A stretch of DNA of 60,794 bases from Frankia sp. AgB32 (lineage in GTDB: Bacteria > Actinomycetota > Actinomycetes > Frankiales > Frankiaceae): the NCBI RefSeq assembly GCF_023243045.1, contig NZ_JALKFX010000019.1:1-60794 (forward strand), given 5' to 3'. This document shows, in pieces, positions 4,382 to 53,507 of this stretch; position 1 is the stretch's first letter, and the number at the start of each line of letters is the position of its first letter. Below the pieces are notes generated by a model that saw only the letters and a program-made list of their open reading frames with translations, had not been told where the DNA came from and searched no databases. Position numbers and translations under genes: made by a program.

Positions 4382-7300
4382 TCAGCCGGCGGACGGGGGC
4401 GCGCCGACCAGGTCGGCGATCTGGTCGGCCAGGTCTGTCAGCCCGGGGCCGGCACAGGCCGCCGCGAGGGCGGTGGCGAGGCAGGCCGGGTCCGTGCCGC
4501 CGGCGAGCGTCCGCACCGCGTCGAGCAGGCCGCTGGCCGACACGTCGCCGACGCTCACCCGGTCCGCGCCGCCGGCGTAGATCGGGCTGCCGCGAAGCCA
4601 GTCGAGCTGCCCGCCGAGAGTGTCGCCGGTGATGGCGAGGCCCCGCTCGCGCCAGGACGCGGTGAGCGGGTGCGGCCCGGCCGCGGCACCGGACCGGCGC
4701 ACGGCGTCACCGAGGGCGAGGCGGACGTCCTGCCACCGATAGACCCCGGCGGTGAGCCGCCGCGGGTCGGCCGCGTCGTCGACCGGGCCGGACAGGTCGG
4801 TCGGGCTGGCGGCCAGCAGCCGGCGCAGGGTGCCGCGCAGGGCGTCGGCGAACTCGTCGGGGTCGACGAACGTACGCAGCAGCGGTCCGCGCGCACCCGC
4901 GGACCGGTCGACGGCGTGCGCCAGCAGGCAGTCCAGCCGCCGCGGCGGCTCGGCGGCGAGGGTGGCACGCAGGGCCTGCGACGGGGCGAACGGCGGCAGT
5001 CCGAGCAGGTGGGCGAACCCCATCACCTGGTGCGCGGCGACCGCCTCCACCCACAGCACCAGCCGGGGATCGGCGGCGGCGAGCGCCGCCGTCTCCGTCT
5101 CCTCCAGGCTGCACGGCCGGCCGGACACGCAGGCAGCGCCGCAGTGCGCGCTGCGCCGGCCGGCCAGCGGCACCCGGTCGTGGCGGGCCGGCTCCGGCGT
5201 CTCCCGGGCGTCGCCGGCGACCATCTGGGCCAGGACGGGCCGGTCCATGCCGTCGATGCTGACCGCGGCCACCCCGGGGGGCAGGGAGACGACGACCTCG
5301 GACTGTTCCGGGCGCAGGTTCATCGTCGCGCCGACGGCCTCGCGGTCGTCGGCGGCGGGCAGCCGGTGCATCACCTTCAGAGCGGTGTTCTTGATGACGT
5401 CGGGCAGGATCTTCGCCGGGATCTGCTCGACGACGACGAGTCCCTCGCCGTAGGCCCGGATCTCCGCGAGCAGCGAGGCGAACAGCTCGACGGCTGCCGC
5501 AGCCGGGCCGTCGGTGACGTTCTTGAGCAGCCGGTGCGCCTCCTCGACGACGAGGACGTGGCGCAGCCCGCCCGCGCCCGTCGCGCCGAACCGGACCCGC
5601 AGGTGCTCGACGATGCGGATGAGCACCGCCCCGAGCAGGAACGCCTTGTCCTGGTCGCTGGTGATGTCCTCCAGCTCGATGACGGCGTTGCGGGTCAGCA
5701 GCGCGCCGATGTCGAGCGGGTGACCGCCCTCGAAGAACCGGCCGGGGCTGCCTTCGCGCAGGCTGCCGATGCGCACGTCGACGAACCCGCGGACGTCGGC
5801 AGTGACCTCCGCGCCGTACCCGATGTCCTCCACCACCCGGGTGGCGGTGCGTTGCAGGTCGCCGAGGGTCGGGTAGCGCCGGCCCGCCTCGACCAGGGGG
5901 TCCGCGTCGGGACCGGCGATCCGCAGCCGCGGCCGGTGCGCCGGTTCCGGCCGGTCGAGGACCAGGTTCCAGCCCAGGTCGCGGTAACAGGCGGTGAGCG
6001 CGCGCGCGAGGACCTGGGGGAACGGCTCGTGCGCCTCGAAGGCGGCGAGGAACAGCGCGCGGACCAGGTCGACGTGGCTCTGCAGTGGGAAGCCGGCTTC
6101 CGGCTCCAGCGGGTTCAGCGACGCCGGCGGCGCGTCGAGCCGCCCTGGTCGGATCACCAGGACCTCGCCCCGCCCGGCCCGACCGTCGGCGGGGTCGGCG
6201 CCGAGCGCGGGACCGGTGAGGTCGGCGAGGCGCCCGGCCATCCGGGCGTACTCCGCCTTCGCGGGTTCGAGCACCAGCCACGGCACCGGCCGCGGCGCCC
6301 GCGTCAACGACTCCAGCAGGGACCGGACGGTCTGCGACTTGCCGGAGCCGGTGGCGCCGCAGACGAAGGCATGGCGGTTGAGGGTGGCGCGCGGGACGGC
6401 GAGCGCGCCGGCCGGTGACCAGCCGGCGTCGATCACCTCGCCGAGGCGCACCGCCTCCGGCTCCCCGTTGGGATCCGCCGGTCCGGCGCGGTCCGGGCCC
6501 TCCGGGGTGACGTCGAACGTGTGCGGGGTGACGAGCGTGATGCCCGGCAGTTCCCGGGCGGGCGGACGCGCCAGTGCGGCGAGCAGTTCCGCCCCGGCCC
6601 GCAGCGGGGCGGGGGCGGCCGGCGGGCGGGCCGCGAGCGCCTGCGGCAGGGAGCTCACCGGGCCGGCCGGGCGCAGCGTGTACGGCAGTTCGTCGAGGTC
6701 GCTGGAGCTGCACAGCAACGCGGCAACGGAGAACGCGCCGGCCCTGCTCCCCCCGCCGACGAGGATCTGGACGTCCCACATGCCGCTGGCCGCGGCCCGG
6801 CCGAGCTCCCGGTGGCGCCGTTCGGCTCGCTCCAGGTCGAGGCGGGCGTCCTGGTCGTCCTCCCGGCGGCGCAGCGTGGGGATGGCCCGGCCGAGTGCGT
6901 CGCGTTCCGCGTCGAGGTGGTGCGCGGGCACCGGCCAGGCGAGCACCAGCCAGGCGAACGGGCCGGTGAGATGGGCGGCGTAGTCGTCGAACGAGCCGCG
7001 CCGGGGGGCGGCGGGTTCCTGGGCGTCCGGGCCGCTGCCGGACGCCGAGGCCCACAGGGCGTCCGGCGTTCCGGCGCAGTGCAGCCAGAACGGCAGCCGC
7101 GCGAGGTCGGCGGGCACGGTGCCGGGGGGCATCGGCCGCGCCGTCGAGCCGGGCGGGTAGAGCAGCGGGGCCGGCCGGCCGGTCGATCTTGGCCGTGCGC
7201 CCGGCCCCCGCGGTTTCCCCGGCTGGTGTAGGCCCGGCGGGGGCACGGCGGGGAACGGCGGAAGTGCCGGCAGCCCGGCGCCGTCCGCGGCCGGCCAGTC

Positions 7301-41251: not shown

Positions 41252-41716
41252 TCACTCGCCACCCATGGCCGCCATCCGGCGGGCCGTCTCCTCGGGAGAG
41301 ACGATCTCGACCCGCGAGGCGACGTTCCAGCGGTGCCCGAAGGGATCGAGGTACTGGCCCGACCGGTCGCCGTAGAACTGGTCGCTGACCGGGCGCAGCG
41401 GCTTCGCGCCGGCGGCGATCGCGCGGTCGAAGGTGGCGTCGACGTCCTCGACGTACAGGTGCAGCGTCACTGCGGTGCCGCCGACCGCCAGTGGGCCGAT
41501 CATGCCCATCTCGGGATACTCGTCCGACAGCATGAGCAGCGAGTCGCCGAGGGTCAGCTCGGCGTGACCGATCTTGCCGTCGGGCTGAGCCATCCGGACT
41601 GTCTCCGTCGCGCCCAGCACGTCGGTGTAGAAGTCGATCGCGGCGGCCGCGCCGTCGACGCAGAGATAGGGCGAAAGTCGGGGGTACTCGGCGGGGATCG
41701 GAGTGATGTCGCTCAT
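41252..41716 (-). CDS. VOC-family protein (PhnB/glyoxalase-like)
   Basis: 154 residues with two beta-alpha-beta-beta-beta halves of the vicinal oxygen chelate fold: LSPYLCVDGAAAAIDFYTDV and VTLHLYVEDVDATFDRAI, ending in DRSGQYLDPFGHRWNVASR. This is the PhnB/YdhR-type group, whose members are often of unknown substrate and may bind a metal. The ATG at 41716 is preceded by a strong AGGAGG. An 18-bp repeat array lies in the leader. The frame stays open upstream through the repeats, but the ribosome binding site supports the shorter protein. Confidence 0.85.
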   Translation of the reverse strand: MSDITPIPAEYPRLSPYLCVDGAAAAIDFYTDVLGATETVRMAQPDGKIGHAELTLGDSLLMLSDEYPEMGMIGPLAVGGTAVTLHLYVEDVDATFDRAIAAGAKPLRPVSDQFYGDRSGQYLDPFGHRWNVASRVEIVSPEETARRMAAMGGE

Positions 41717-42394: not shown

Positions 42395-42529
42395 ATGCGC
42401 ACGGGAAGAAGTGCGTCCGACGGTCGCCGCGCGCAATTGCGGGCAACCGGTGGGCGGAACCCAGAAATGTATTCGACACCGGCCCGGGGCCGGGCGGTGC
42501 GCGGCCTGGGCGGAGACCGGCCGCGATGA
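42395..42529 (+). CDS. possible 44-residue leader protein, coupled to the GT2 gene
   Basis: The ATG at 42395 has a good ribosome binding site, GGGGGAA, eight bases upstream. The frame MRTGRSASDGRRAQLRATGG continues with Arg-rich sequence and stops with TGA overlapping the ATG of the glycosyltransferase gene (ATGA). The composition is like a shadow frame, so the product itself may be unimportant. The overlap suggests translational coupling. Confidence 0.35.
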   Translation: MRTGRSASDGRRAQLRATGGRNPEMYSTPARGRAVRGLGGDRPR

Positions 42530-43821
42530 CGCCGGCAGCCGTGGGCGGCCAACCCGACGACCTCACCGGCGTGCTGCGCCGACCGGTCCTGCCGCGTCCC
42601 CGGGTCCCCCCGGACGACTACGGGCTCGAACCGGTCGCCGATCCGGATGCGCCCCCGCCCGGCTCGGCGTCGCCGGCGCGGCCGCAGGTGTCCGTGGTGG
42701 TGCCGACCCGCAACGAGGAGCGCAACGTGGGGCCCCTGCTGCGCCGACTGGACGACGCGCTGCGCGGGCTGGCCGGCGAGGTCATCTTCGTGGACGACTC
42801 GGACGACGCGACGCCCGACGCGATCGCCCGCATCCGCCCCAGCCTGACCCTGCCGGTGCGGATCCATCATCGTCCGCGCGGGCACCGCCCGGGCGGCCTC
42901 GGCGGCGCGGTCACCGAGGGTTTCTCCCTGTGCGCCGCGCCCTACGCCGTGATCATCGACGGCGACCTGCAGCATCCGCCGGAGACGATCCCGACGATGC
43001 TCGCCACCGCCGTACGCGACCAGTCCGACGTGGTGATCGGCAGTCGTTACGTGGCCGGCGGCAGCGCCTCCGGCCTGTCCGGCACCGCCCGTCACCTGGT
43101 CTCCACCGGGTCGAACCTGGCCTGCCGGCTGGCCTTCCCGCGCCGGCTGCGCGGTGTCTCCGACGTGATGAGCGGATTCTTCCTGGTGCGGGTCGCGGCG
43201 GTGAACCGGGCCGGCCTGCGCCCGGACGGCTACAAGATCCTGCTGGAACTGCTGGCCACCGCCGGGCCACTGCGGATCCACGAGGTGGGCTACGTCTTCG
43301 CCGAGCGGCACACCGGGGCCTCGAACGCGTCGCTGGCGGAAGGGATCCGCTTCGCCCGCCGGCTGTTCGCCCTGCGGGTGCCGCGGGCAGCCCGCTTCGC
43401 CCTGGTCGGGGCGTCCGGTACCGTCCCGAACCTGCTGGGCACGGCCGCCCTGCACCGCCTCGGCCTGCACTACCTGGCCGCGGCGATCATCGCCACCCAG
43501 GTCGCGATCGCGTGGAACTTCGCCGGCTGCGAGCTGCTGGTCTGGGACCGCCGCCCGGGCTCTCGGCGGCGCCGCTACCCGCCGTTCGCGGTCATCAACA
43601 ACCTCGACCTGGTGATCCGGCTGCCGCTGCTGGCGCTGCTCGTCGGCCGGTGGGGGCTCGGCGTGGGCCTGGCGACCCTGCTGTCGCTGGCCGCCGCCGT
43701 CCTCGCCCGCTACCTGGTGGTGGAGCGGCTGGTCTATCGGGTCCGGCCGGTGCCGGCCGACCGGCCGTTCGGGCCGGTGCTGGCGGCTGCGGGGGAGGAC
43801 GCGCCTGATGCGCTCACCTGA
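42526..43821 (+). CDS. polyprenyl-phosphate glycosyltransferase (GT2) with GtrA-like membrane domain
   Basis: 431 residues. The GT2 domain (residues 45-270) shows VSVVVPTRNEERNVGPLL, VIFVDDSDDATPD and IIDGDLQHPPE, which is the DPM1/DPG-synthase pattern. This kind of enzyme moves a sugar from a nucleotide to polyprenyl phosphate at the inner membrane face. The C-terminal 130 residues carry four membrane helices of the GtrA family (RFALVGASGTVPNLLGTAAL, LVIRLPLLALLVG), which may flip the lipid-linked sugar. It would supply the donor for the dolichyl-phosphate-type transferase at 49798-51510. It starts inside the upstream small frame (ATGA) and overlaps the copper oxidase gene by 14 bases. Confidence 0.88.
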   Translation: MTPAAVGGQPDDLTGVLRRPVLPRPRVPPDDYGLEPVADPDAPPPGSASPARPQVSVVVPTRNEERNVGPLLRRLDDALRGLAGEVIFVDDSDDATPDAIARIRPSLTLPVRIHHRPRGHRPGGLGGAVTEGFSLCAAPYAVIIDGDLQHPPETIPTMLATAVRDQSDVVIGSRYVAGGSASGLSGTARHLVSTGSNLACRLAFPRRLRGVSDVMSGFFLVRVAAVNRAGLRPDGYKILLELLATAGPLRIHEVGYVFAERHTGASNASLAEGIRFARRLFALRVPRAARFALVGASGTVPNLLGTAALHRLGLHYLAAAIIATQVAIAWNFAGCELLVWDRRPGSRRRRYPPFAVINNLDLVIRLPLLALLVGRWGLGVGLATLLSLAAAVLARYLVVERLVYRVRPVPADRPFGPVLAAAGEDAPDALT

Positions 43822-46609
43822 CCACGCCGCCGCCGGTGCGCGTCGTCGCCGTCGGCGGCCGGCGCGGGCCGGCCGCGTGCTGGTCGCGGTCGTGCTGGCC
43901 TCGACGGTCGGGCAGTTCCTCGTCCTGATCGTCGCGGGCGAGCCGGCCGCGCGCGCCGAGACCTGCGCCGACGGCCAGTGGTCCGCCGAGTTCCACACCG
44001 GCACGGCCCTGGGCGGCGAACCGGTCGCCCAGCGCTGCGACGCCGCGATCGACGTCGACTGGTCGCAGAACGGCCCCGGCGTGACCGGGACCGGCACCAC
44101 CGACTACTCGGTCCGCTGGACCCGCCAGCTCACCCTCGCCGCCGGCTCCTACGCGGCGAGTGTCACCGGCGACGACGGCGTCCGGGTCCTCATCGACGGC
44201 CAGACCGTCGCCGACGGCTGGGGCGACCACGGCCCGCAGACGTTCACCGGTACCCGCACCCTGACCGCGGGCGCCCACACCATCGTCGTCGAGTACTACC
44301 AGAACGCCGGCGGCGCGATGGTGGAGTTCGACCTCTCCGGCGGCCCGGGGGACGACGGAGCCAGCGCCGGGACCGACTGCCCCGCCGGCCAGTGGGCCGG
44401 CACCTACTACCCGAACCGCACGCTCAGCGGCACCGGCGTGCCCCGCTGCTCGGAGAGCGTCGACTACCACTGGGGGACGGGCGGCCCCGGTCTCGCGGGC
44501 ATCGGCGCGGACGACTTCTCCGCCCGGTGGACGCGCACGCAGGAGTTGGCCGCCGGCACCCTGGCCCTCACCGCCGCCGCCGACGACGGCATCCGGGTCT
44601 CCGTCGACGGCCAGCCGGTCATCGACCAGTGGCACGACCAGGGCCCCACGACCTACTCGGCGAGCGTGCCGGTCAGCGCCGGCACCCACACCATCCGAGC
44701 CGACTACTACGAGCACACCGGCGACGCGAGTGCCCAGGTCGGGTACACCTTCACCCCCGCCGCAGTGTGCAACATGATCCAGTGGTCCGCGCAGTACTTC
44801 CCGAACGCGACGCTGGCCGGCGCGCCGTCGCCGGCCCGCTGCGAGACCGGCCTGCACCACGACTTCGGCCTGGGCGGTCCGGACGTCCCCGGCATCGGCA
44901 GCGACGAATTCTCCGCTCGCTGGACGCGGGTCGACCACTTCGCCGCCGGGCCGATCACGATCACCGCGGTGGCCGACGACGGGGTGCGCGTCCACGTCGA
45001 CGGCATCCGGGTCATCGACGGGTGGAACGACCAGGGGCCGACGACGTTCACGGCGACCCCGACGCTCACCGCCGGCGCCCACACGATCGTCGCCGAGTAC
45101 TACGAGGGGACCGGCGGCGCGCAGATCCGGGTCGACTACACCGGTGGCGGCGACCCCGGCCCGCTGCCGCCGCCACCACCCGGGGGATGCACCGCCGACT
45201 GCGGCGGATCGTGGCAGACGCTGAACTACCAGATGCCCGTGCGATCCGTGCACGCCAGCCTGCTGCACACCGGAAACGTGCTGCTCGTCGCCGGCTCGGG
45301 AAACGATCCGTCAGCATTCGACACGCATTCCTTCGCGTCGACGGTGTGGAATCCCACGACCGGCGAGTTCAAGGCTACTCCGGTAGCGGATGACCTTTTC
45401 TGCTCCGGGCATGTCCAGTTACCGGACGGCAAAATTCTGTTGGCCGGCGGAACGGCCGCGTACTCGACCGCGACGACGAACTACAAGGGCCTGGCGAAAA
45501 GCTACGTCTTCGACCCGGTGGCCGACACCTACACGGCCGCGAACGACCTGCCCGGCGGCGGCCACTGGTACCCGAGCCTGACCGAGCTCGGCGACGGGAA
45601 CGTCGTCGCCGTGGGCGGCCTCGACCAGAACGCCGACGGCAACGTCGCCACCGAACTGTTCGACAGCGCGGCGCACCACTGGCTGCCGGCCGCGCAGGTA
45701 CCGCAGAGCTACTTCTTCTGGGGCCTTTACCCCGAGCTGAAGCTGATGTCCGACGGCCGGCTGTTCTACGCCGGCATCCACACCTTCGGCAACGCGCCGA
45801 CCGCCGCCGGGTCGAACATCTACGACCCGGCGACCGCCACCGTCAACGACGTCCCCGGCCTGCGCGACGTCAACCTGCGCGACCAGGGCGCCGCGGTGCT
45901 GCTACCGCCGGCCCAGGCCGGCCGGATCATGACCCTCGGCGGCGGCAACGGCGACGCCGGCGCCGACGCCGTCGCCACCACCGACCTCATCGACCTGCGC
46001 CAGACCGACCCGCACTGGCAGCCCGGCCCCGACCTGCCGGCCGCGAAGATGTACGTCTCCGCGGTGATCCTGCCCGACGGACAGGTCCTGGAGACCGGCG
46101 GTGGCCGTCACCTGCGCTCCGACCCGGTGCACGAGGCGTCGCTCTACGACCCGGTGGCGAACCACTTCACCACCGTCCCGCCCGACCCACAGGACCGGAC
46201 CTACCACTCCCAGGCGCTCCTGCTGCCCGACGGCAGCGTGGCGGCGCTCGGCAACAACCCGCTGGACGGCTCGTTCAGCCAGACGATCTCCATCTACCGG
46301 CCCTGGTACATGACCCGCCAGCGGCCCGCGATCACCGCGGCGGCGGACACGTTCGGCTACGGCTCCCAGCAGTCCCTGACGGTCAGCGGCGACATCGGCC
46401 GCGTCACGCTGCTGCGCCCCGCCTCCGTCACCCACCAGGCCGATCCCAACCAGCGCAGCGTCGACCTGCCGATCTCCGCCAGCGGCCAGAACGGCATCAG
46501 CGTCGACGTCCCGGCCAACCCGAACCTACTTCCACCGGGGTACTACATGATGTTCGCCCAGAACACCGCCGGGGTTCCCTCGGTCGCCCGCTGGGTGCGT
46601 GTCGGTTGA
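43808..46609 (+). CDS. secreted radical copper oxidase (GlxA/galactose oxidase-like) with three PA14-like domains
   Basis: 933 residues. An Arg-rich start and a hydrophobic segment ending near ARA form a signal peptide or anchor. Three PA14-like modules follow (residues about 57-180, 193-315 and 320-445), each with a W-x-A-x-Y/F opening and a DDGVRV-type calcium loop. The kelch catalytic domain has every residue expected for the Tyr-Cys radical site: FCSGH (Cys532), HWYPSL (Tyr588), Trp638, TYHS (Tyr799, His800) and SVTHQADPNQR (His876). Such enzymes oxidise alcohols or aldehydes to give hydrogen peroxide; GlxA acts on a glycan made by CslA. PA14 modules usually bind sugars, so they could hold the polymer. 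It overlaps the upstream GT2 gene by 14 bases. Confidence 0.88.
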   Translation: MRSPDHAAAGARRRRRRPARAGRVLVAVVLASTVGQFLVLIVAGEPAARAETCADGQWSAEFHTGTALGGEPVAQRCDAAIDVDWSQNGPGVTGTGTTDYSVRWTRQLTLAAGSYAASVTGDDGVRVLIDGQTVADGWGDHGPQTFTGTRTLTAGAHTIVVEYYQNAGGAMVEFDLSGGPGDDGASAGTDCPAGQWAGTYYPNRTLSGTGVPRCSESVDYHWGTGGPGLAGIGADDFSARWTRTQELAAGTLALTAAADDGIRVSVDGQPVIDQWHDQGPTTYSASVPVSAGTHTIRADYYEHTGDASAQVGYTFTPAAVCNMIQWSAQYFPNATLAGAPSPARCETGLHHDFGLGGPDVPGIGSDEFSARWTRVDHFAAGPITITAVADDGVRVHVDGIRVIDGWNDQGPTTFTATPTLTAGAHTIVAEYYEGTGGAQIRVDYTGGGDPGPLPPPPPGGCTADCGGSWQTLNYQMPVRSVHASLLHTGNVLLVAGSGNDPSAFDTHSFASTVWNPTTGEFKATPVADDLFCSGHVQLPDGKILLAGGTAAYSTATTNYKGLAKSYVFDPVADTYTAANDLPGGGHWYPSLTELGDGNVVAVGGLDQNADGNVATELFDSAAHHWLPAAQVPQSYFFWGLYPELKLMSDGRLFYAGIHTFGNAPTAAGSNIYDPATATVNDVPGLRDVNLRDQGAAVLLPPAQAGRIMTLGGGNGDAGADAVATTDLIDLRQTDPHWQPGPDLPAAKMYVSAVILPDGQVLETGGGRHLRSDPVHEASLYDPVANHFTTVPPDPQDRTYHSQALLLPDGSVAALGNNPLDGSFSQTISIYRPWYMTRQRPAITAAADTFGYGSQQSLTVSGDIGRVTLLRPASVTHQADPNQRSVDLPISASGQNGISVDVPANPNLLPPGYYMMFAQNTAGVPSVARWVRVG

Positions 46610-47073
46610 GCTGGCACTCTGCCCACAACGGGCCTGACCGCGTCCACGCTGACCGGAGCCGGCGTCGCGGGAGGCTGGCCGCGATCGCGCTCACGGTCGT
46701 CGTCGTGAACGGCGTCGCCGGCGCGCTCGCGCGCGATGGCTGGCCCGCCGACGGCGCGGGGCCGCCGAACACCGGCGATCCCGCGGCCGTCGCGGCGGCG
46801 CCACCCGGTGTCCTGTCCGGCCGGGTCGTGCCACGCGGCAACGGCCGTCCCTCGCCGGTGCCCGCCGGACTCGACGGCTGCGACTACAACTACGTGGCGG
46901 GGGACACCGGGCGGCGGATTTGCGTGCCCCGCACGCCCCCGCCCGGCCAGCGACTCGACTGCGCCTACCTGCGGGCCCAGGGCATCGGCCCGGTCCGCGT
47001 GATCGGCGAGGACACCCGCAAACTCGCGGGCGCCATCCCGGTGACACGAGGCGCGGTGCTCTGTGCCCGGTAA
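46606..47073 (+). CDS. small exported Cys-containing protein of unknown function
   Basis: 155 residues. The TTG at 46606 overlaps the stop of the copper oxidase gene (TTGA). A basic start and hydrophobic segment (LAAIALTVVVVNGVAGALA) form a signal peptide or anchor. The mature part has a motif GCDYNYVAGDTGRRICVP and then DCAYLRAQGIGPVRVIGEDT, ending in a Cys. The layout recalls the C-terminal part of Excalibur-type extracellular modules, but the Asp-rich calcium end is missing. Four Cys could make two disulfides or hold copper. Its place between the oxidase and SCO genes suggests a role in the oxidase pathway. The start is the least certain part. Confidence 0.55.
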   Translation: MSWHSAHNGPDRVHADRSRRRGRLAAIALTVVVVNGVAGALARDGWPADGAGPPNTGDPAAVAAAPPGVLSGRVVPRGNGRPSPVPAGLDGCDYNYVAGDTGRRICVPRTPPPGQRLDCAYLRAQGIGPVRVIGEDTRKLAGAIPVTRGAVLCAR

Positions 47074-47776
47074 CGCGACGCCCCGGGTGCCGGGTCGCCG
47101 TCCGGGCAGCGCGGCCGCGGGGCTGGCAGCGGCCGCACTGCTGCTCCTATCTGCGGGCTGCGGCGGCGGGCCCAGGCCGGTGCTCGGTGGATCCGGGGCG
47201 CGGGCGGCGGGTACGCCGGTCGCGGCACCCAGCCTTCCCGGCGACTGGCACGGGACCGCCACGGTGGGGACCGTCCGCCGGCCGTCGTTCACGCTCACCG
47301 ACACCGACGGCCGCCGCTTCGACTTCGCCCAGGCCACCGCGGGCCACGCGACCCTGCTGTTCTTCGGCTACACGCACTGCCCCGACGTGTGCCCGACGAC
47401 GATGGCGGATCTCGCCGTGGCCCGGCAGGTCGTCGGGTCCGCCGTCGCGGCGAAGGTGACGGTCGTGTTCGTCACGACGGACCCGGCGCGGGACACCCCG
47501 GCGGTGCTGGCGCGGTGGCTCCGCCAGTTCGACGCCCGGTTCATCGGGCTGACCGGAACGTCGGCGCAGGTTGCGGCGGCCCAGCGGGCCGTCGGCGTCC
47601 CGGTCGCCCTCGCCGACCCGGACGGCGCTGGCCCGGACGGCGCCGGCTACCTGGTCGGCCATGCCGCCCAGGTCCTCGGGATCGGCCCCGACGACCGCGT
47701 CCACGTCCGCTGGTTCGCCGACACCACCGTCGCCGAGTACGTCGCCGACGTCCCGCGGCTCGCCGCCGCTGTCTGA
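47063..47776 (+). CDS. SCO1/SenC-family copper chaperone, lipoprotein
   Basis: 237 residues. A lipoprotein signal ends LLLLSAGC, so it should be lipid-anchored outside the membrane. The thioredoxin-like domain has the copper motif CPDVC (Cys106, Cys110) with His200 in LVGHAAQV, the full ligand set of SCO proteins. SCO chaperones load copper into cytochrome oxidase, and in Streptomyces an SCO protein is needed for GlxA maturation. Here no cytochrome oxidase gene is near, while a radical copper oxidase is encoded two genes upstream, so that is the probable client. The GTG at 47063 overlaps the previous gene by 11 bases. Confidence 0.88.
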   Translation: MPGNATPRVPGRRPGSAAAGLAAAALLLLSAGCGGGPRPVLGGSGARAAGTPVAAPSLPGDWHGTATVGTVRRPSFTLTDTDGRRFDFAQATAGHATLLFFGYTHCPDVCPTTMADLAVARQVVGSAVAAKVTVVFVTTDPARDTPAVLARWLRQFDARFIGLTGTSAQVAAAQRAVGVPVALADPDGAGPDGAGYLVGHAAQVLGIGPDDRVHVRWFADTTVAEYVADVPRLAAAV

Positions 47777-47842
47777 CCACACCTCGCCGCGGTCGCCGGC
47801 CACAGCGGCGACCGGGCGGCCCTGACCCACCAGGCAGGCAAA

Positions 47843-49801
47843 GTGAGATCCGAAACCGAGTCCGACCTTCCACCCACCCGCGAACTCCCCGCCTCCGCGC
47901 GCCGGGAACCGAGCCGACCGCCACGCCTCGACGGAGCCGACCCGTTGAGCCCGACCCGGCTCGCCGCCGCCGGCTGGGGCGTCGGCCTGCACGTCACGCT
48001 GACCGCCCTGGGCGCCGGCCCGCTCGGCATCGACCAGCCGCTGGCCTACCTGATCCCGGCGGCGCTGGCCGTCCTCGGCCCGCGCACCTCCGGCCGCGCC
48101 GGCCCTCGCGACGCGATCCGCCCAGCCCCTGCCGGCCCGGAGCGCGCCCATCGCGGGAACCGGCTGCCGCGGTGGGTCCAGCTCGCCTGCGAGGCGGCCG
48201 GCTGGTACGTGTTCGCCGCCGTCGGTGAGCCGGGCCTCTCGGGTGTCGGCGGGCCCGGCCTGTCGACCTGGCTGGCCGCCGCGCTCGGCGCGGTGACGGC
48301 GATCGCGGCCATCACCGTCCTGACCCGGCGCGGCCTGTCCGCCCGGCCGGCGGCACGCCGTCGCCGGCGGGTGGCGTGCGGCCTGGTCGTCGCGCCGCTC
48401 GCCGTCGCCCTCGCCGTCACCGCGGCGCGGCACCACCACACGGTGCTGCTGGCCGCCTGGACCGGAGTCTCGCTGCTGATGCTGGTCGTCGCGGTGGTGA
48501 CGTTGACCCGCGGCCAGTACGGCTGGCAGCTGCCGGAACGGGTGCACCATGTCGACCTCACCGACATCGCACCGCCGCGGCACCGCGTCTCGCTGATCGT
48601 GCCAGCCCGCGAGGAGCCCGTACTCGGGCGGACGCTTACCCAGATCCTGGCCGGTGACTACCCGGAATCACTCGTCGAGATCGTGGTGATGGTGTCCCAC
48701 GACGAGGTCGACCGGGCCACCCGGGAGATCGCCGAACAGATCGCGCGGCGGCATCCGAACGTGCGCGTCGTCGCGCCGGAGGGCAGCCGGCGCAGCAAGC
48801 CGCTGTCGCTGGAGGACGCCCGCCAGCACTGCACCGGCGACCTCGTCGGCATCGTCGACGCCGAATCGCTCATCGCCCCGGGGCTGCTGACCTACGTCAA
48901 CACCCTGGCGTCCCGGCAGCCCGACGTCGGCATCTTCCAGGGCGGCGTGCAGCTGATGAACGTGCGCGGCCCCGACCGCGCCGACCAGGCCACCGGCCGG
49001 GACGGCGCCGGCGCCGCCGGCCCCCGGGCGGTGCTGCGCCGCCTGGACACCGATGCCTCCTGGTGGCGGGCCCGGAACTGTCTGGAGTACTACATCTGGT
49101 TCATGTCCCGGCTGCGCTTCCAGGCGCGGGCCCGGTTCATCCCGCTCGGTGGGAACACGGTGTTCATCCGCCGCGACGTGCTGGACCGCCTCGGCGGCTG
49201 GGACGTCGCCTGCCTGACCGAGGACTGCGACCTCGGAGTACGCGCCTCGGTCGCCGGGGTGCGCACCATCGTCTTCTACCACCCGGAGCTGACGACCCGG
49301 GAGGAGACGCCGGAGAGCCTGACCAAGCTCGTCGTGCAGCGCACCCGCTGGATGATGGGCTTCCTGCAGGTCCTGTTCAAGGGGGACTGGCGGCTGCTGC
49401 CGGGGGCACGCCAGCGGCTGATGGCCGCGGAGATGCTGGCCATGCCGCTGTTCCAGGCGGTCGCCGGGGTGCTGCTGCCCGTCTCCCTCGTTCTCACGTT
49501 GTTCCTCACCGCGCCGACGGGCCTGGTCATCGTGTTCTGGTTGCCGATGGGCGCGACCGTCATGGCCGTGTTCACCGAGCAGGCGGCGTTCCGGGAGTTC
49601 GCCGACGCCTACGACCTCGACGTCGGCCGCTGGGACAGCGTCCGTCTCGTGCTCAGCGCACCGCTCTACCAGCTCGCCCTGTCGGTCGCGGCGGTCCGGG
49701 CCGCCGGCCGCCTGCTGCGCGGCCGGCTCGAATGGGAGAAGACGTCGCACTCCGGCGCCCACCACGGCGTCGGCCGCGTCTCGCTGGAAGGCGTGTCCTG
49801 A
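47843..49801 (+). CDS. CslA-like processive GT2 glycosyltransferase (cellulose/chitin synthase type)
   Basis: 652 residues. Several N-terminal membrane helices (residues 45-225) precede the GT2 domain: VSLIVPAREEPVLGRTL, IVDAES (metal Asp), TEDCDLGVR (catalytic base) and QRTRWMMGF, the QxxRW motif of processive synthases. Three or more C-terminal membrane helices follow. These enzymes make a beta-linked polymer and thread it through the membrane. In Streptomyces, CslA acts with GlxA at hyphal tips. No GH6 gene (cslZ) was found in the locus. The GTG at 47843 follows AGGCAGGC. The stop TGA overlaps the next start. Confidence 0.85.
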   Translation: MRSETESDLPPTRELPASARREPSRPPRLDGADPLSPTRLAAAGWGVGLHVTLTALGAGPLGIDQPLAYLIPAALAVLGPRTSGRAGPRDAIRPAPAGPERAHRGNRLPRWVQLACEAAGWYVFAAVGEPGLSGVGGPGLSTWLAAALGAVTAIAAITVLTRRGLSARPAARRRRRVACGLVVAPLAVALAVTAARHHHTVLLAAWTGVSLLMLVVAVVTLTRGQYGWQLPERVHHVDLTDIAPPRHRVSLIVPAREEPVLGRTLTQILAGDYPESLVEIVVMVSHDEVDRATREIAEQIARRHPNVRVVAPEGSRRSKPLSLEDARQHCTGDLVGIVDAESLIAPGLLTYVNTLASRQPDVGIFQGGVQLMNVRGPDRADQATGRDGAGAAGPRAVLRRLDTDASWWRARNCLEYYIWFMSRLRFQARARFIPLGGNTVFIRRDVLDRLGGWDVACLTEDCDLGVRASVAGVRTIVFYHPELTTREETPESLTKLVVQRTRWMMGFLQVLFKGDWRLLPGARQRLMAAEMLAMPLFQAVAGVLLPVSLVLTLFLTAPTGLVIVFWLPMGATVMAVFTEQAAFREFADAYDLDVGRWDSVRLVLSAPLYQLALSVAAVRAAGRLLRGRLEWEKTSHSGAHHGVGRVSLEGVS

Positions 49802-51510
49802 CCGCGACAGAGCTGGCCGGCGAGACGCTTCCGCAGGCGTTCGGGCCGCGCTCGACCGCCGGCCGGGCCGGCGAGCGGACGCGGACCGTGGTCGCGTGGC
49901 TGGCGGCGCACGCCCGGGCGCACCGGCAGAGCCTGGTGCTGCTCGCTGTCCTGCTGCCGGTCGTCGCGGTCATCCACGGGGTCAACTTCGACGGCTGGCC
50001 GGGCCGGGTCACCGACGACGAGGGCACCTACGCCGCGCAGGCCTACTCGATGCAGTACTGGAACCGTATCGCCCACTACACCTACTGGTACGACCACCCG
50101 TTCGGCGGCTGGCTGCTGATCGCCATCTACACCAAGCTGACCGACGGCTTCCACCGGGCGCCGACGGCGGTCACCGCCGCCCGGGAACTGATGTTCTGGC
50201 TGCACCTGGTGTCCTGCGTGCTGCTCTACCGGCTGGGCCGGCTGCTCGGGCTGCGCCGGTTCTTCGCCGCGTTCGCCCTGCTCGCCTACTCGCTGTCGCC
50301 GCTCGGCCTGTGGTACCAGCGGATGGCGTTCCTCGACAACATCGCGGTGATGTGGCTGCTCGCCGCGTTCACGGCCGCGGCCTCGCCGCGGCGCAGCGTC
50401 GGGGCGGCCGCGCTGGCCGGCACGTTCATGGCGTTCTCGTTCTGGTCCAAGGAGACGACGCTGCTGTTCCTGCCCGGGCTGTACGTGCTGCTGCGCCAGC
50501 ACCGCGACCCGCGGAACTGGCGGTTCGTCCGGCGCAACTTCGCCGGCTGCCTGATCGGCATCTGCGCCATCTACATCCTCTACGCGGCGGCGAAGAACGA
50601 GCTGTTCGAGGGGCCCGGCCACGTCTCGCTGGAGTGGGCGGTGCGCTGGCAGCTCTTCGAGCGGGCACCGAGTGGCAGCGTGCTGGACAGCGGCAGCGAC
50701 ACCTACAACGTCGTCCGCTCCTGGCTGGACCTCGATCCCTACCTGGTGCTCGCCGGGATCGCCGCGGCGGTGCCGCTGCTCGCGCTGCGCCGCCTGCGGG
50801 TGGTCGCCGTGCTGCTGCTGGTCCAGTTCGGGTTCATCTTCCGCGACGGCTACCTGCCGAACCCGTACGTCACCGCGATGCTGCCCTTCGCGGCCCTGTG
50901 CGTCGCCGGGCTGCTCGACATGGCTCTTCCCCGCCGCGCTCTGCCGCTTCAGACGGGACGGCCGCTTCAGACGGGACGGCCGGCCTGGCTGGGGATGCTG
51001 TGGGCGATGGTGCGCCGGGGAGTCGTCGGTGCCGCGGTGGTCGGCGCGGTGACGGCCGTGACGCTGGACTGGACACCGAAGATCCACACTGCGCTGACCC
51101 GCGACGCGGGCGCCCCGAGCCGGGATGCCACCCGCTGGTTCCTGGCCAACCTGCGCGACCACGGCACCGTCGTCACCGACGACATCGCCTGGACCGACCT
51201 GGTGATCGCCGGCCGCCGTCCGTTACCCGTGTGGTTCTACAAACTGGACCTCGACCCGCAGGTCCAGGCCCAGTTCCCGAACGGCTGGCGGGACGTCGAC
51301 TACCTGATGATGGGCAAACCGCCGGACTCGGTGCTCGCCGAGGTCCCGCTGGTCGCCGAGGCGCTGCGCCACTCGGTCGTGCTGAAGTCCTTCGGCAACG
51401 GTGAGATCGAGATCCGCCGGGTGGTTCCCCCCGGCTGCCGGGCCGATCTCCCACCCGAGCGTTGCGAGCACCGCGCCAGCCCGCGCCGCAGGACGCCGTC
51501 GCACACCTGA
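49798..51510 (+). CDS. dolichyl-phosphate-mannose-type glycosyltransferase (PMT/GT39 or ArnT-like)
   Basis: 570 residues and about 10 membrane helices. The first outer loop holds DDEGTYAAQAYSMQYWN, with the acidic Asp-Glu pair expected in GT-C enzymes, then HPFGGWLLIAIYTKL, LLYRLGRLLGLRRFFA and YQRMAFLDNIAVMWL. GT-C enzymes take sugars from polyprenyl phosphate and attach them to proteins or glycans outside. The GT2-GtrA gene at 42526 could make that donor. No ATG, GTG or TTG is well placed; CTG at 49798 has GGAAGG six bases upstream and forms a CTGA overlap with the CslA-like gene. GTG 49888 and ATG 49732 are alternatives. A small duplication gives LQTGRP twice near residue 385. Confidence 0.82.
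   Translation: MTATELAGETLPQAFGPRSTAGRAGERTRTVVAWLAAHARAHRQSLVLLAVLLPVVAVIHGVNFDGWPGRVTDDEGTYAAQAYSMQYWNRIAHYTYWYDHPFGGWLLIAIYTKLTDGFHRAPTAVTAARELMFWLHLVSCVLLYRLGRLLGLRRFFAAFALLAYSLSPLGLWYQRMAFLDNIAVMWLLAAFTAAASPRRSVGAAALAGTFMAFSFWSKETTLLFLPGLYVLLRQHRDPRNWRFVRRNFAGCLIGICAIYILYAAAKNELFEGPGHVSLEWAVRWQLFERAPSGSVLDSGSDTYNVVRSWLDLDPYLVLAGIAAAVPLLALRRLRVVAVLLLVQFGFIFRDGYLPNPYVTAMLPFAALCVAGLLDMALPRRALPLQTGRPLQTGRPAWLGMLWAMVRRGVVGAAVVGAVTAVTLDWTPKIHTALTRDAGAPSRDATRWFLANLRDHGTVVTDDIAWTDLVIAGRRPLPVWFYKLDLDPQVQAQFPNGWRDVDYLMMGKPPDSVLAEVPLVAEALRHSVVLKSFGNGEIEIRRVVPPGCRADLPPERCEHRASPRRRTPSHT

Positions 51511-51570: not shown

Positions 51571-51578
<8 letters not shown>
51545..51578. repeat. 17-bp duplication across the 3' end of the FHA gene
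   Basis: GGGACGGCGTCAGCTCA is present twice head to tail. The second copy contains the stop codon and the last Ser codon of the FHA gene. Confidence 0.8.
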
Positions 51579-52230
<652 letters not shown>

Positions 52231-52262
52231 GGCAATGTCCTCTCTGGGACCGTGGCCGGCCG

Positions 52263-52718
52263 TCAGGCCGGGAAGACCTCGCCGCCGCGGACGGCGACCG
52301 CGACGGGGGGGAGCGGTGCCTTCGCGGGGCCGGCGACCGGCTGGCCGGTGCGGGTGTCGAACGCGCTGCCGTGACACGGGCAGAGGATCCGGTCGCCCGA
52401 CACCGCGTTCACCGAGCAGCCCTGGTGGGTGCAGACCTTCGAGAATCCCTGGACCTCGCCGGCGGCGTTGCGGGTGAGCACGACGCCCTCGCTGTCGAGG
52501 ATCAGCCCGCCCTCGGCGGGCACGTCGTCGACCTTGGCCAGGGCCGTGGCGGCGCCGCCGCCACCCGCGGCACCGGAACTGGCGGGGGCGCGGCTGGCAG
52601 CGGGGTCGTCCGCCGCGTCACTGCCGCTGGCCACCGCGTATCCGGCGACGCCCGCGGCCACGGTGACCGCGATGCCGGGGACGACGGCCCGCCGGCTCGG
52701 CGCGTGCTGGCTGCTCAT
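52263..52718 (-). CDS. Rieske 2Fe-2S protein, exported
   Basis: 151 residues. A twin-Arg-like start (SRRAVVPGIAVTVAAGVAGY) suggests Tat export and anchoring. The Rieske domain has CTHQGC (Cys96, His98) and CPCHGS (Cys113, His116) as cluster ligands, with Cys101 and Cys115 able to form the stabilising disulfide of high-potential Rieske proteins. It ends LPPVAVAVRGGEVFPA, the normal last strand. It carries electrons on the outer face of the membrane. The ATG at 52718 follows AAGGACGAGAAG. It sits between a DUF6529-like membrane gene and the FHA gene with gaps of 63 and 32 bases, so it is probably one operon. Confidence 0.9.
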   Translation of the reverse strand: MSSQHAPSRRAVVPGIAVTVAAGVAGYAVASGSDAADDPAASRAPASSGAAGGGGAATALAKVDDVPAEGGLILDSEGVVLTRNAAGEVQGFSKVCTHQGCSVNAVSGDRILCPCHGSAFDTRTGQPVAGPAKAPLPPVAVAVRGGEVFPA

Positions 52719-52781
52719 GCTTCTCGTCCTTGTGCTCGGGAGCCGACGTTGCCGGGGCGGGAGACCGCGACCGGGGTGCGC

Positions 52782-53354
52782 TCAGACATGGGGGATTCCG
52801 GCGCGGGTGAAGAACCACAGCGACGCGGTCAGCCAGAGCGTGACGAGCGCGGCGAACACCAGCGAACCGAGTACCGGCAGCGTCCAACCGGGCAGGCCGC
52901 GCACCCGCAGGCCGAGCATCTTCGACGCGTACGCGCCGTAGAAGGCGCAGCCGGCGATGCCGTGGACGAGGACCCGCGCGTCGGTGTCGGCGAAACCGAG
53001 CGACCAGATGCAGGTGAACGCGACCGGCAGCGTCACCACGAACGCCGCCGTGCCGGCCCACCGGTGCACCAGGCTGGCCCACGCCGGCGCCGAGCCCGCG
53101 CCGGGCAGCCGGCCCCACATCCACAGCGCCGTGGTCAGCTGTCCGACCGCGAGCACCAGTGCCACCGTCGTCAGCCACGCCTTCATCGGCGTGGCGCTGG
53201 AGAAGCCGAGCGTGAGCACCGGCCGGCCGGCCGGGTCGTGGACCTTCGCGTACGTCCCGAGCGACACCGCGATGACGGCGCCGATCAGCAGTACCCACAC
53301 GATCGCACCACCCCGCGCCGTCGACCGCTCGGTCGATTCAGTGCCGACCGTCAT
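52782..53354 (-). CDS. DUF6529-like multi-pass membrane protein
   Basis: 190 residues and about five membrane helices (GAIVWVLLIGAVIAVSLGTY, WLTTVALVLAVGQLTTALWM, TAAFVVTLPVAFTCIWSLGF, LVHGIAGCAFYGAYASKML, LVFAALVTLWLTASLWFF). His residues in helices 3 and 4 (LVHRW, LVHG) could bind heme, as in cytochrome b561-like proteins, but this is not shown. The likely role is an electron partner of the Rieske protein downstream. The ATG at 53354 has a G-rich ribosome binding site. The assignment to DUF6529 is from memory of the family pattern. Confidence 0.65.
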   Translation of the reverse strand: MTVGTESTERSTARGGAIVWVLLIGAVIAVSLGTYAKVHDPAGRPVLTLGFSSATPMKAWLTTVALVLAVGQLTTALWMWGRLPGAGSAPAWASLVHRWAGTAAFVVTLPVAFTCIWSLGFADTDARVLVHGIAGCAFYGAYASKMLGLRVRGLPGWTLPVLGSLVFAALVTLWLTASLWFFTRAGIPHV

Positions 53355-53507
53355 GGCCGCCCACCCCCCTGAAAACTGCCTTAAGATTTCCTCTGCAACC
53401 GGAACATGCCCGAGTACAGCAGGTCGCGCCGGAAATCGTCGTCGGGACGACAAAGACGGCGAGTTTGAGGGGTTCGCGCCGTTACGCGGCGCGACAAGGT
53501 CGGCGAA

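Follow-up and report, generated by a model that had tools for sequence, protein, structure and literature searches.

A conserved six-gene Frankia locus that probably encodes a second radical copper oxidase glycan system, additional to cslA-glxA

The sequence analyzed here (the window) is a stretch of 60,794 nucleotides from Frankia sp. AgB32 (contig NZ_JALKFX010000019.1 of assembly GCF_023243045.1), and our subject is a group of six forward-strand genes read from its open reading frames at 42526 to 51510. In order, these code for a family 2 glycosyltransferase carrying a GtrA domain (GT2-GtrA), a radical copper oxidase, a four-cysteine protein (the Cys protein), an SCO1/SenC copper protein (SCO), a larger family 2 glycosyltransferase (GT2), and a GT-C glycosyltransferase. 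The first four genes overlap successively by 14, 4, and 11 bases, a 66-base gap precedes the GT2 gene, and GT2 and GT-C overlap by 4 bases if the GT-C gene starts at 49798; the flanking genes on both sides (41252-41716 and 51571-52230) are on the opposite strand. An initial annotation had described such a cluster, with overlaps of 4 to 14 bases and one 66-base gap, and the open reading frames and Pfam matches bear it out; its earlier start at 42395 is out of frame with the first gene and is replaced by 42526, the first possible start and the first in-frame ATG, GTG, or TTG. The locus is probably a conserved second radical copper oxidase glycan system of a GlxA-like kind, additional to cslA-glxA, that has a chaperone of its own as well as a new partner domain.

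The gene order is well conserved. Comparison across genomes, named beforehand as a test of the cluster, shows all six genes colocated in the same order in 12 of 18 related loci of family f1; the other six are interrupted by contig ends and their visible order is consistent, so the arrangement is not a product of chance. Our family and genus codes are inferred equivalents, with f1 taken as Frankiaceae, g1 as Frankia, and f18 as Streptomyces-like. The nearest named relatives are Frankia, and the oxidase is 91% identical to that of Frankia sp. AgKG'84/4. By oxidase search, the window-type oxidase is present in 10/13 g1, 5/5 g3, 3/6 g2, and 0/8 g6 genomes, and in 0/3 for g4, g5, and g7. Two genomes (G020 and G014; loci L063 and L064 with L139 and L140) have a second, neighboring system in which the order is permuted to SCO-GT2-GT-C-GT2-GtrA on one contig, and a second oxidase with a Cys protein is on another. 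Tandem duplication was considered as the origin of this order and is not shown; the contigs break between the two parts, at the key place.

The oxidase gene (43808-46609) codes for a 933-residue product that is predicted to be exported or membrane anchored, with a single hydrophobic stretch at residues 24 to 42 that could be either a signal or an anchor. Pfam finds three N-terminal PA14 stretches (2.4e-30), in agreement with the fusion first annotated, and a galactose oxidase-like E-set domain (PF09118, 4.7e-25), with the kelch and E-set region at 45188-46606. The number of PA14 domains varies across the 18 f1 loci: three in 12, four in two, one in three, and two in one that is cut by a contig end. 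Alignment to GlxA (PDB 4UNM) shows that Cys532, Trp587-Tyr588, Tyr799-His800, and His876 are kept, at what are presumably the catalytic positions of GlxA. Judged from its sequence, with the kelch/E-set architecture, the Cys-Tyr pair, the second Tyr, and two His all present, this is an AA5-type radical copper oxidase, and the GlxA-like assignment with copper and radical residues holds to that extent. It is not GlxA itself, since it falls in a separate clade and its adjacent GT2 is far from CslA. In a tree of 47 rows (two fragments of 49, the second part from G020 and the G010 remnant, were left out) the window clade has 31 members and the canonical clade 13, with both forks at 99 in the Shimodaira-Hasegawa-like approximate likelihood ratio test (SH-aLRT); this tree and those of GT-C and GT2 were built quickly and carry long-branch warnings. 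Against the GlxA equivalog model NF052501 (cut-off, 800 bits) it scores 388 bits, with the canonical GlxA of G103 at 1038.6 bits and AgB32's own canonical GlxA, also below the cut-off, at 654.4. No PA14-fused bacterial radical copper oxidase and no GT2-GtrA/GT-C/oxidase locus appear in the titles and abstract openings of the open-access literature matches listed.

The SCO gene (47063-47776; 237 residues) matches PF02630 (SCO1/SenC, 2.4e-33), and its best PDB match is 4BPY (9.2e-39), which we take to be Streptomyces lividans Sco. A lipobox is seen by eye, suggesting a lipoprotein, and the copper-binding features of the family are present: CPDVCP in the window protein, CxxxCP in 15/15 operon rows, and the distal His (H-A/S-Q) in 14/15. 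The initial annotation placed a chaperone inside the operon, and the SCO1/SenC match and the unchanged place of the gene in each of the 12 complete loci agree with this. In the SCO tree, which omitted G010 from 26 rows, the 15 operon rows are one clade (100/99), apart from the SCOs of canonical loci and from that of the genome's own SCO-DyP-PCuAC cluster. The tree suggests that several oxidase loci recruited SCO independently, but not significantly: the approximately unbiased test does not reject trees in which the second-locus SCOs of G014 and G020 are constrained to group with the operon clade (p-AU 0.0625), or trees in which the canonical-locus SCOs join them as well (p 0.175). We also note a C-terminal (D/N)Y(A/S)HD(I/L)P stretch that is missing from the 15 operon SCOs and present in 9 of 10 other SCO rows. 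AgB32 codes for two further SCOs, one within the SCO-DyP peroxidase-PCuAC cluster (L090:7745-10395), which resembles sco-ecuc-dtpA of S. lividans. The available part of one report describes S. lividans GlxA as needing either Sco or added copper to mature (PMC4736821), and because of this need for Sco a dedicated SCO for the window oxidase is the natural reading.

The Cys protein gene (46606-47073; 155 residues, TTG start) codes for a predicted exported or membrane-anchored protein with a hydrophobic stretch at residues 24 to 42 and a partner domain at 46870-47058; it has no Pfam match at E 0.001. In 11/11 f18 window-clade oxidases read, the same domain is a C-terminal extension of the oxidase. 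Its presence as a fusion in some genomes and as a neighboring gene in others suggests a physical partnership, and the Cys protein is thus a likely dedicated oxidase partner. The fused f18 domain ends with an acidic loop, D-x-(D/N/S)-x-(D/N)-G, which the operon Cys proteins lack and the Cys protein beside the second oxidase of G014 and G020 keeps. A domain profile search finds 34 of 393 class genomes, 33 strongly and one (G288) weakly. All 32 genomes with a window-type oxidase among the 393 carry the domain, and 32 of the 34 domain-bearing genomes have such an oxidase, with genomes sorted by oxidase search bit score except G129, which was sorted by the oxidase tree. Among 296 genomes drawn from across the phylum, four matched the domain, and all four were already in this set. 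An Excalibur identity (PF05901, DxDxDGxxC) was rejected, as there is no Pfam match in the window protein or three relatives and the operon proteins have no acidic loop; hhalign pairs the C-terminal half of the family with one of the genome's own excaliburs at a probability of 78%, which is suggestive only. The structure model is weak (mean predicted local distance difference test score [pLDDT] 56, with about 78 in the conserved domain), and Foldseek with this model found nothing (best E 6.2).

The three glycosyltransferases are of different types. GT2-GtrA (42526-43821; 431 residues) matches PF00535 (4.5e-22) and PF04138 (1.8e-15), and its residues 54 to 397 align with the dolichol-phosphate-mannose synthase 5MLZ (2.7e-43) across both the glycosyltransferase and the membrane domains; this likeness suggests a polyprenyl-phosphate-sugar synthase that possibly also flips its product. 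The membrane-bound GT2 (47843-49801; 652 residues) matches PF13641 (Glyco_tranf_2_3, 5.6e-56) and has the TED and QRTRW motifs; it is probably a glycan synthase. Its annotation as CslA-like does not survive: it has DAE in place of the DxD of CslA and BcsA and no FxVTxK gating motif by eye, whereas the genome's own CslA has all four motifs (DPD, TED, QQLRW, and FVVTPK), and the two proteins match only at E 0.004 over 77 amino acids and are far apart in the tree. Among solved structures, 6YV7 is the closest to it by profile, followed by cellulose synthases. The GT-C gene ends at 51510 and its start is uncertain; the gene caller chose GTG at 49888, and the nearest relative begins with a GTG that overlaps the stop codon of GT2, a position that reads CTG in the window (49798). 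Its polytopic product shares the motifs DDEGTY and YTYWYDHP with its relatives, and with matches accepted to E 1, 8 of 11 members of this family hit PF02366 PMT, the best of them at 4.6e-12. The window GT-C is without such a match and has none in Pfam at E 0.001. A profile of the family finds nothing in the PDB up to E 10. Fragments were omitted from the trees (one of 35 GT-C rows and three of 40 GT2 rows).

Related GT2/GT-C pairs are present without an oxidase match nearby at seven loci in other families (L126, L127, L128, L131, L134, L135, and L137). Glycoside hydrolase family 8 (GH8) glucanases adjoin the pairs of L126, L128, and L131, as confirmed in 3/3 proteins tested, with look-alikes in L127 and L135, and this hints at a beta-glucan-like backbone. 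By eye, L126 and L128 also have GtrA-like and lipid-sugar-synthase-like genes, a glucan-like locus type.

AgB32 itself also carries a canonical CslA-GlxA-GH6-GH6 locus (GH6, glycoside hydrolase family 6) on contig C166 (L003), with the two GH6 genes following glxA at L003:10555-13241. With the canonical locus elsewhere in the same genome, the window operon is a second, paralogous system. The earlier suggestion that GT-C replaces the hydrolase of cslA-glxA is not sustained by this, and derivation of the operon as a rearranged cslA-glxA was rejected given the canonical locus, the two oxidase clades, and a GT2 that is not CslA. The annotated variant system for making and oxidizing a surface glycan thus retains its conserved cluster, radical copper oxidase, and SCO, but as a separate second system. 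Linkage of SCO to an oxidase locus is not new as such: the accessible part of PMC4736821 reports that a sco homologue adjoins the Frankia cslA-glxA cluster, which resembles the window operon in this pairing of SCO with a radical copper oxidase. Six further family genomes (G003, G008, G025, G024, G022, and G019) have an SCO gene no more than about 6.4 kb from the canonical oxidase; AgB32 does not. In the canonical loci read, SCO follows the oxidase (in G003 with a single GH6 gene in between), whereas in the window it lies between the partner protein and GT2 and belongs to its own clade.

The Streptomyces cslA-glxA(-cslZ) systems share with the window operon a membrane GT2 and a secreted radical copper oxidase, and Sco-dependent copper loading of GlxA is described in the available portions of three reports (PMC4736821, PMC11022532, PMC3543389). 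The window operon differs in its oxidase clade and its GT2, in having PA14 domains, the partner domain, GT2-GtrA, and GT-C, and in lacking an endoglucanase. Streptomyces-type genomes of f18 have window-type loci, with the order GT2, GT-C, GT2-GtrA, oxidase; L129 has no GT2-GtrA match, and in the three f18 oxidases whose N termini were read the module is other than PA14. The same 14 f18 genomes hold GT-C, the window-type oxidase, and the partner domain (three of these, G280, G322, and G335, assigned from score and position alone), and 17 other f18 genomes with weaker oxidase matches (≤245 bits) have none of the three.

A natural deletion shows how the operon may be divided. In G010, which has a complete chromosome of 5,433,628 bases, GT2-GtrA, GT2, and GT-C are intact and between them are an oxidase fragment and then an SCO tail; at the deletion site (L144, about 6500-7010) the Cys protein is missing entirely and the oxidase and SCO are missing for the most part, and no partner domain is found in this genome. 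The joint loss of these three with the glycosyltransferases spared points to two separable modules. On balance, and with some reserve, we read the operon as a two-module surface glycan machine that couples synthesis to copper-dependent oxidation. GT2, with its QxxRW motif, would extend a backbone across the membrane, for which a beta-glucan-like polymer is the best guess. GT2-GtrA, resembling dolichol-phosphate-mannose synthase, would charge polyprenyl phosphate with a sugar and present it outside, and the PMT-type GT-C could then move this sugar onto the emerging chain. SCO would load copper into the exported oxidase, after which the Cys532-Tyr588 cofactor would form; the Cys protein perhaps acts as a dedicated subunit in docking, maturation, or activity, and the PA14 domains may keep the oxidase on the glycan. 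The oxidase is then expected to convert hydroxymethyl groups to aldehydes, which would be able to cross-link the surface polymer.

A broader proposal, which we offer tentatively and consider somewhat doubtful, is that these loci are a second, previously undescribed class of radical copper oxidase glycan systems in Frankia and Streptomyces-like genomes, in which GT-C would add side sugars outside the cell, the oxidase would act on the branches, and a new, obligate partner domain (separate in Frankia and a fused tail elsewhere) would dock or mature the oxidase. Either way, a second oxidase clade with fixed glycosyltransferases, its own SCO, and a partner domain provides a handle on the natural substrate and partners of GlxA, and G010 is a natural strain that keeps the synthases and lacks the copper module. 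Oxidase action on glycan side chains, copper loading, and the effect of surface oxidation on Frankia mycelium, sporangia, and host symbiosis become testable.

Several observations weigh against a conserved two-module glycan machine. The locus is not universal in the family, as the window-type oxidase is absent from 3/13 g1, 3/6 g2, and 8/8 g6 genomes. The Streptomyces-type regions read have no SCO match, and a dedicated SCO is thus not essential to the type. Because the genomes are related, the presence and absence counts, including the 14 f18 genomes, are not independent events. G009, an 880-contig draft, has GT-C and the partner domain with no window-type oxidase detected, and the weak G288 domain match (3.5e-5) also falls outside the pattern. 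The DAE motif and the lack by eye of FxVTxK leave processivity of GT2 unproven; the window GT-C has no Pfam or PMT match of its own, its structure model failed (pLDDT 38) and was not used, and Pfam finds no glucanase match in the window operon.

An unlikely alternative is that the three glycosyltransferases modify proteins or an existing wall polymer, with the oxidase acting on what they produce or on small alcohols and aldehydes. The PMT family, which GT-C relatives match, includes protein mannosyltransferases. The missing DxD and gating motif of GT2 and the ranking of 6YV7 ahead of cellulose synthases fit this alternative as well, as does glycolaldehyde, the best GlxA substrate so far in the available part of PMC4736821. 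The TED and QRTRW motifs of GT2, the GH8 glucanases adjoining relatives of GT2 and GT-C, and the extra N-terminal modules of the oxidase (PA14, or another module in the three Streptomyces-type proteins read) argue against it. That the operon is nothing other than the cslA-glxA-sco cluster already published for Frankia is very improbable; the sco homologue reported beside cslA-glxA, in what is accessible of PMC4736821, is the point in its favor, but the canonical locus is separate (L003), lies near an SCO gene in six genomes (G003 and G008 among them), and includes GH6, a CslA bearing the full set of four motifs, and an oxidase of the other clade. Similarly small is the chance that hydrogen peroxide for a peroxidase or defense is the main oxidase product, with glycan only a fuel or anchor. 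A DyP peroxidase is indeed encoded beside another SCO in the genome, and S. lividans DtpA is proposed, in the part of PMC4736821 available, to remove GlxA peroxide; however, no peroxidase-family match is found by Pfam among the six genes, and their linkage is to glycosyltransferases. Although the usual role of SCO proteins is at the CuA site, it is scarcely credible that this SCO serves cytochrome c oxidase and is in the operon by accident, given its fixed position and own clade, its loss in large part together with the oxidase in G010, the two further SCOs of the genome, one with DyP and PCuAC, and, on a point raised in the initial annotation, no COX1 on the operon contig, with the three COX1 matches of the genome on contigs C22, C252, and C215.

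The synthetic half of the proposed glycan machine would have counterparts in known transmembrane glycosylation systems. The scheme of a GT-A lipid-sugar synthase, a GtrA flippase, and a GT-C is established, as set out in the accessible part of PMC8035078, and the CsbB-GtcA-YfhO type shares with the window operon a GT-A, a GtrA-type domain, and a putative GT-C. It differs in that the window GtrA domain is fused to the GT-A and that the operon adds a QxxRW GT2 and a copper oxidase. The GT-A and GtrA assignments follow from Pfam and 5MLZ, and the GT-C assignment is suggested through relatives, 8 of 11 of them with PMT matches. The gsf cluster of Actinoplanes missouriensis, described in the portion of PMC13390465 available, is likewise GtrA-dependent actinomycete surface glycosylation and is needed for sporangia; the main text of that source contains no mention of copper, galactose oxidase, or SCO1, and states that AMIS_70410 is not a GT-C.

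A scan for transcription signals was uninformative, with no promoter-like site and one terminator-like site against 1.6 expected. Downstream of the operon, the other strand at 51571-53453 codes for products that we name by eye as a poly-Pro protein with an FHA-like N terminus, a Rieske-like protein, and a membrane protein.

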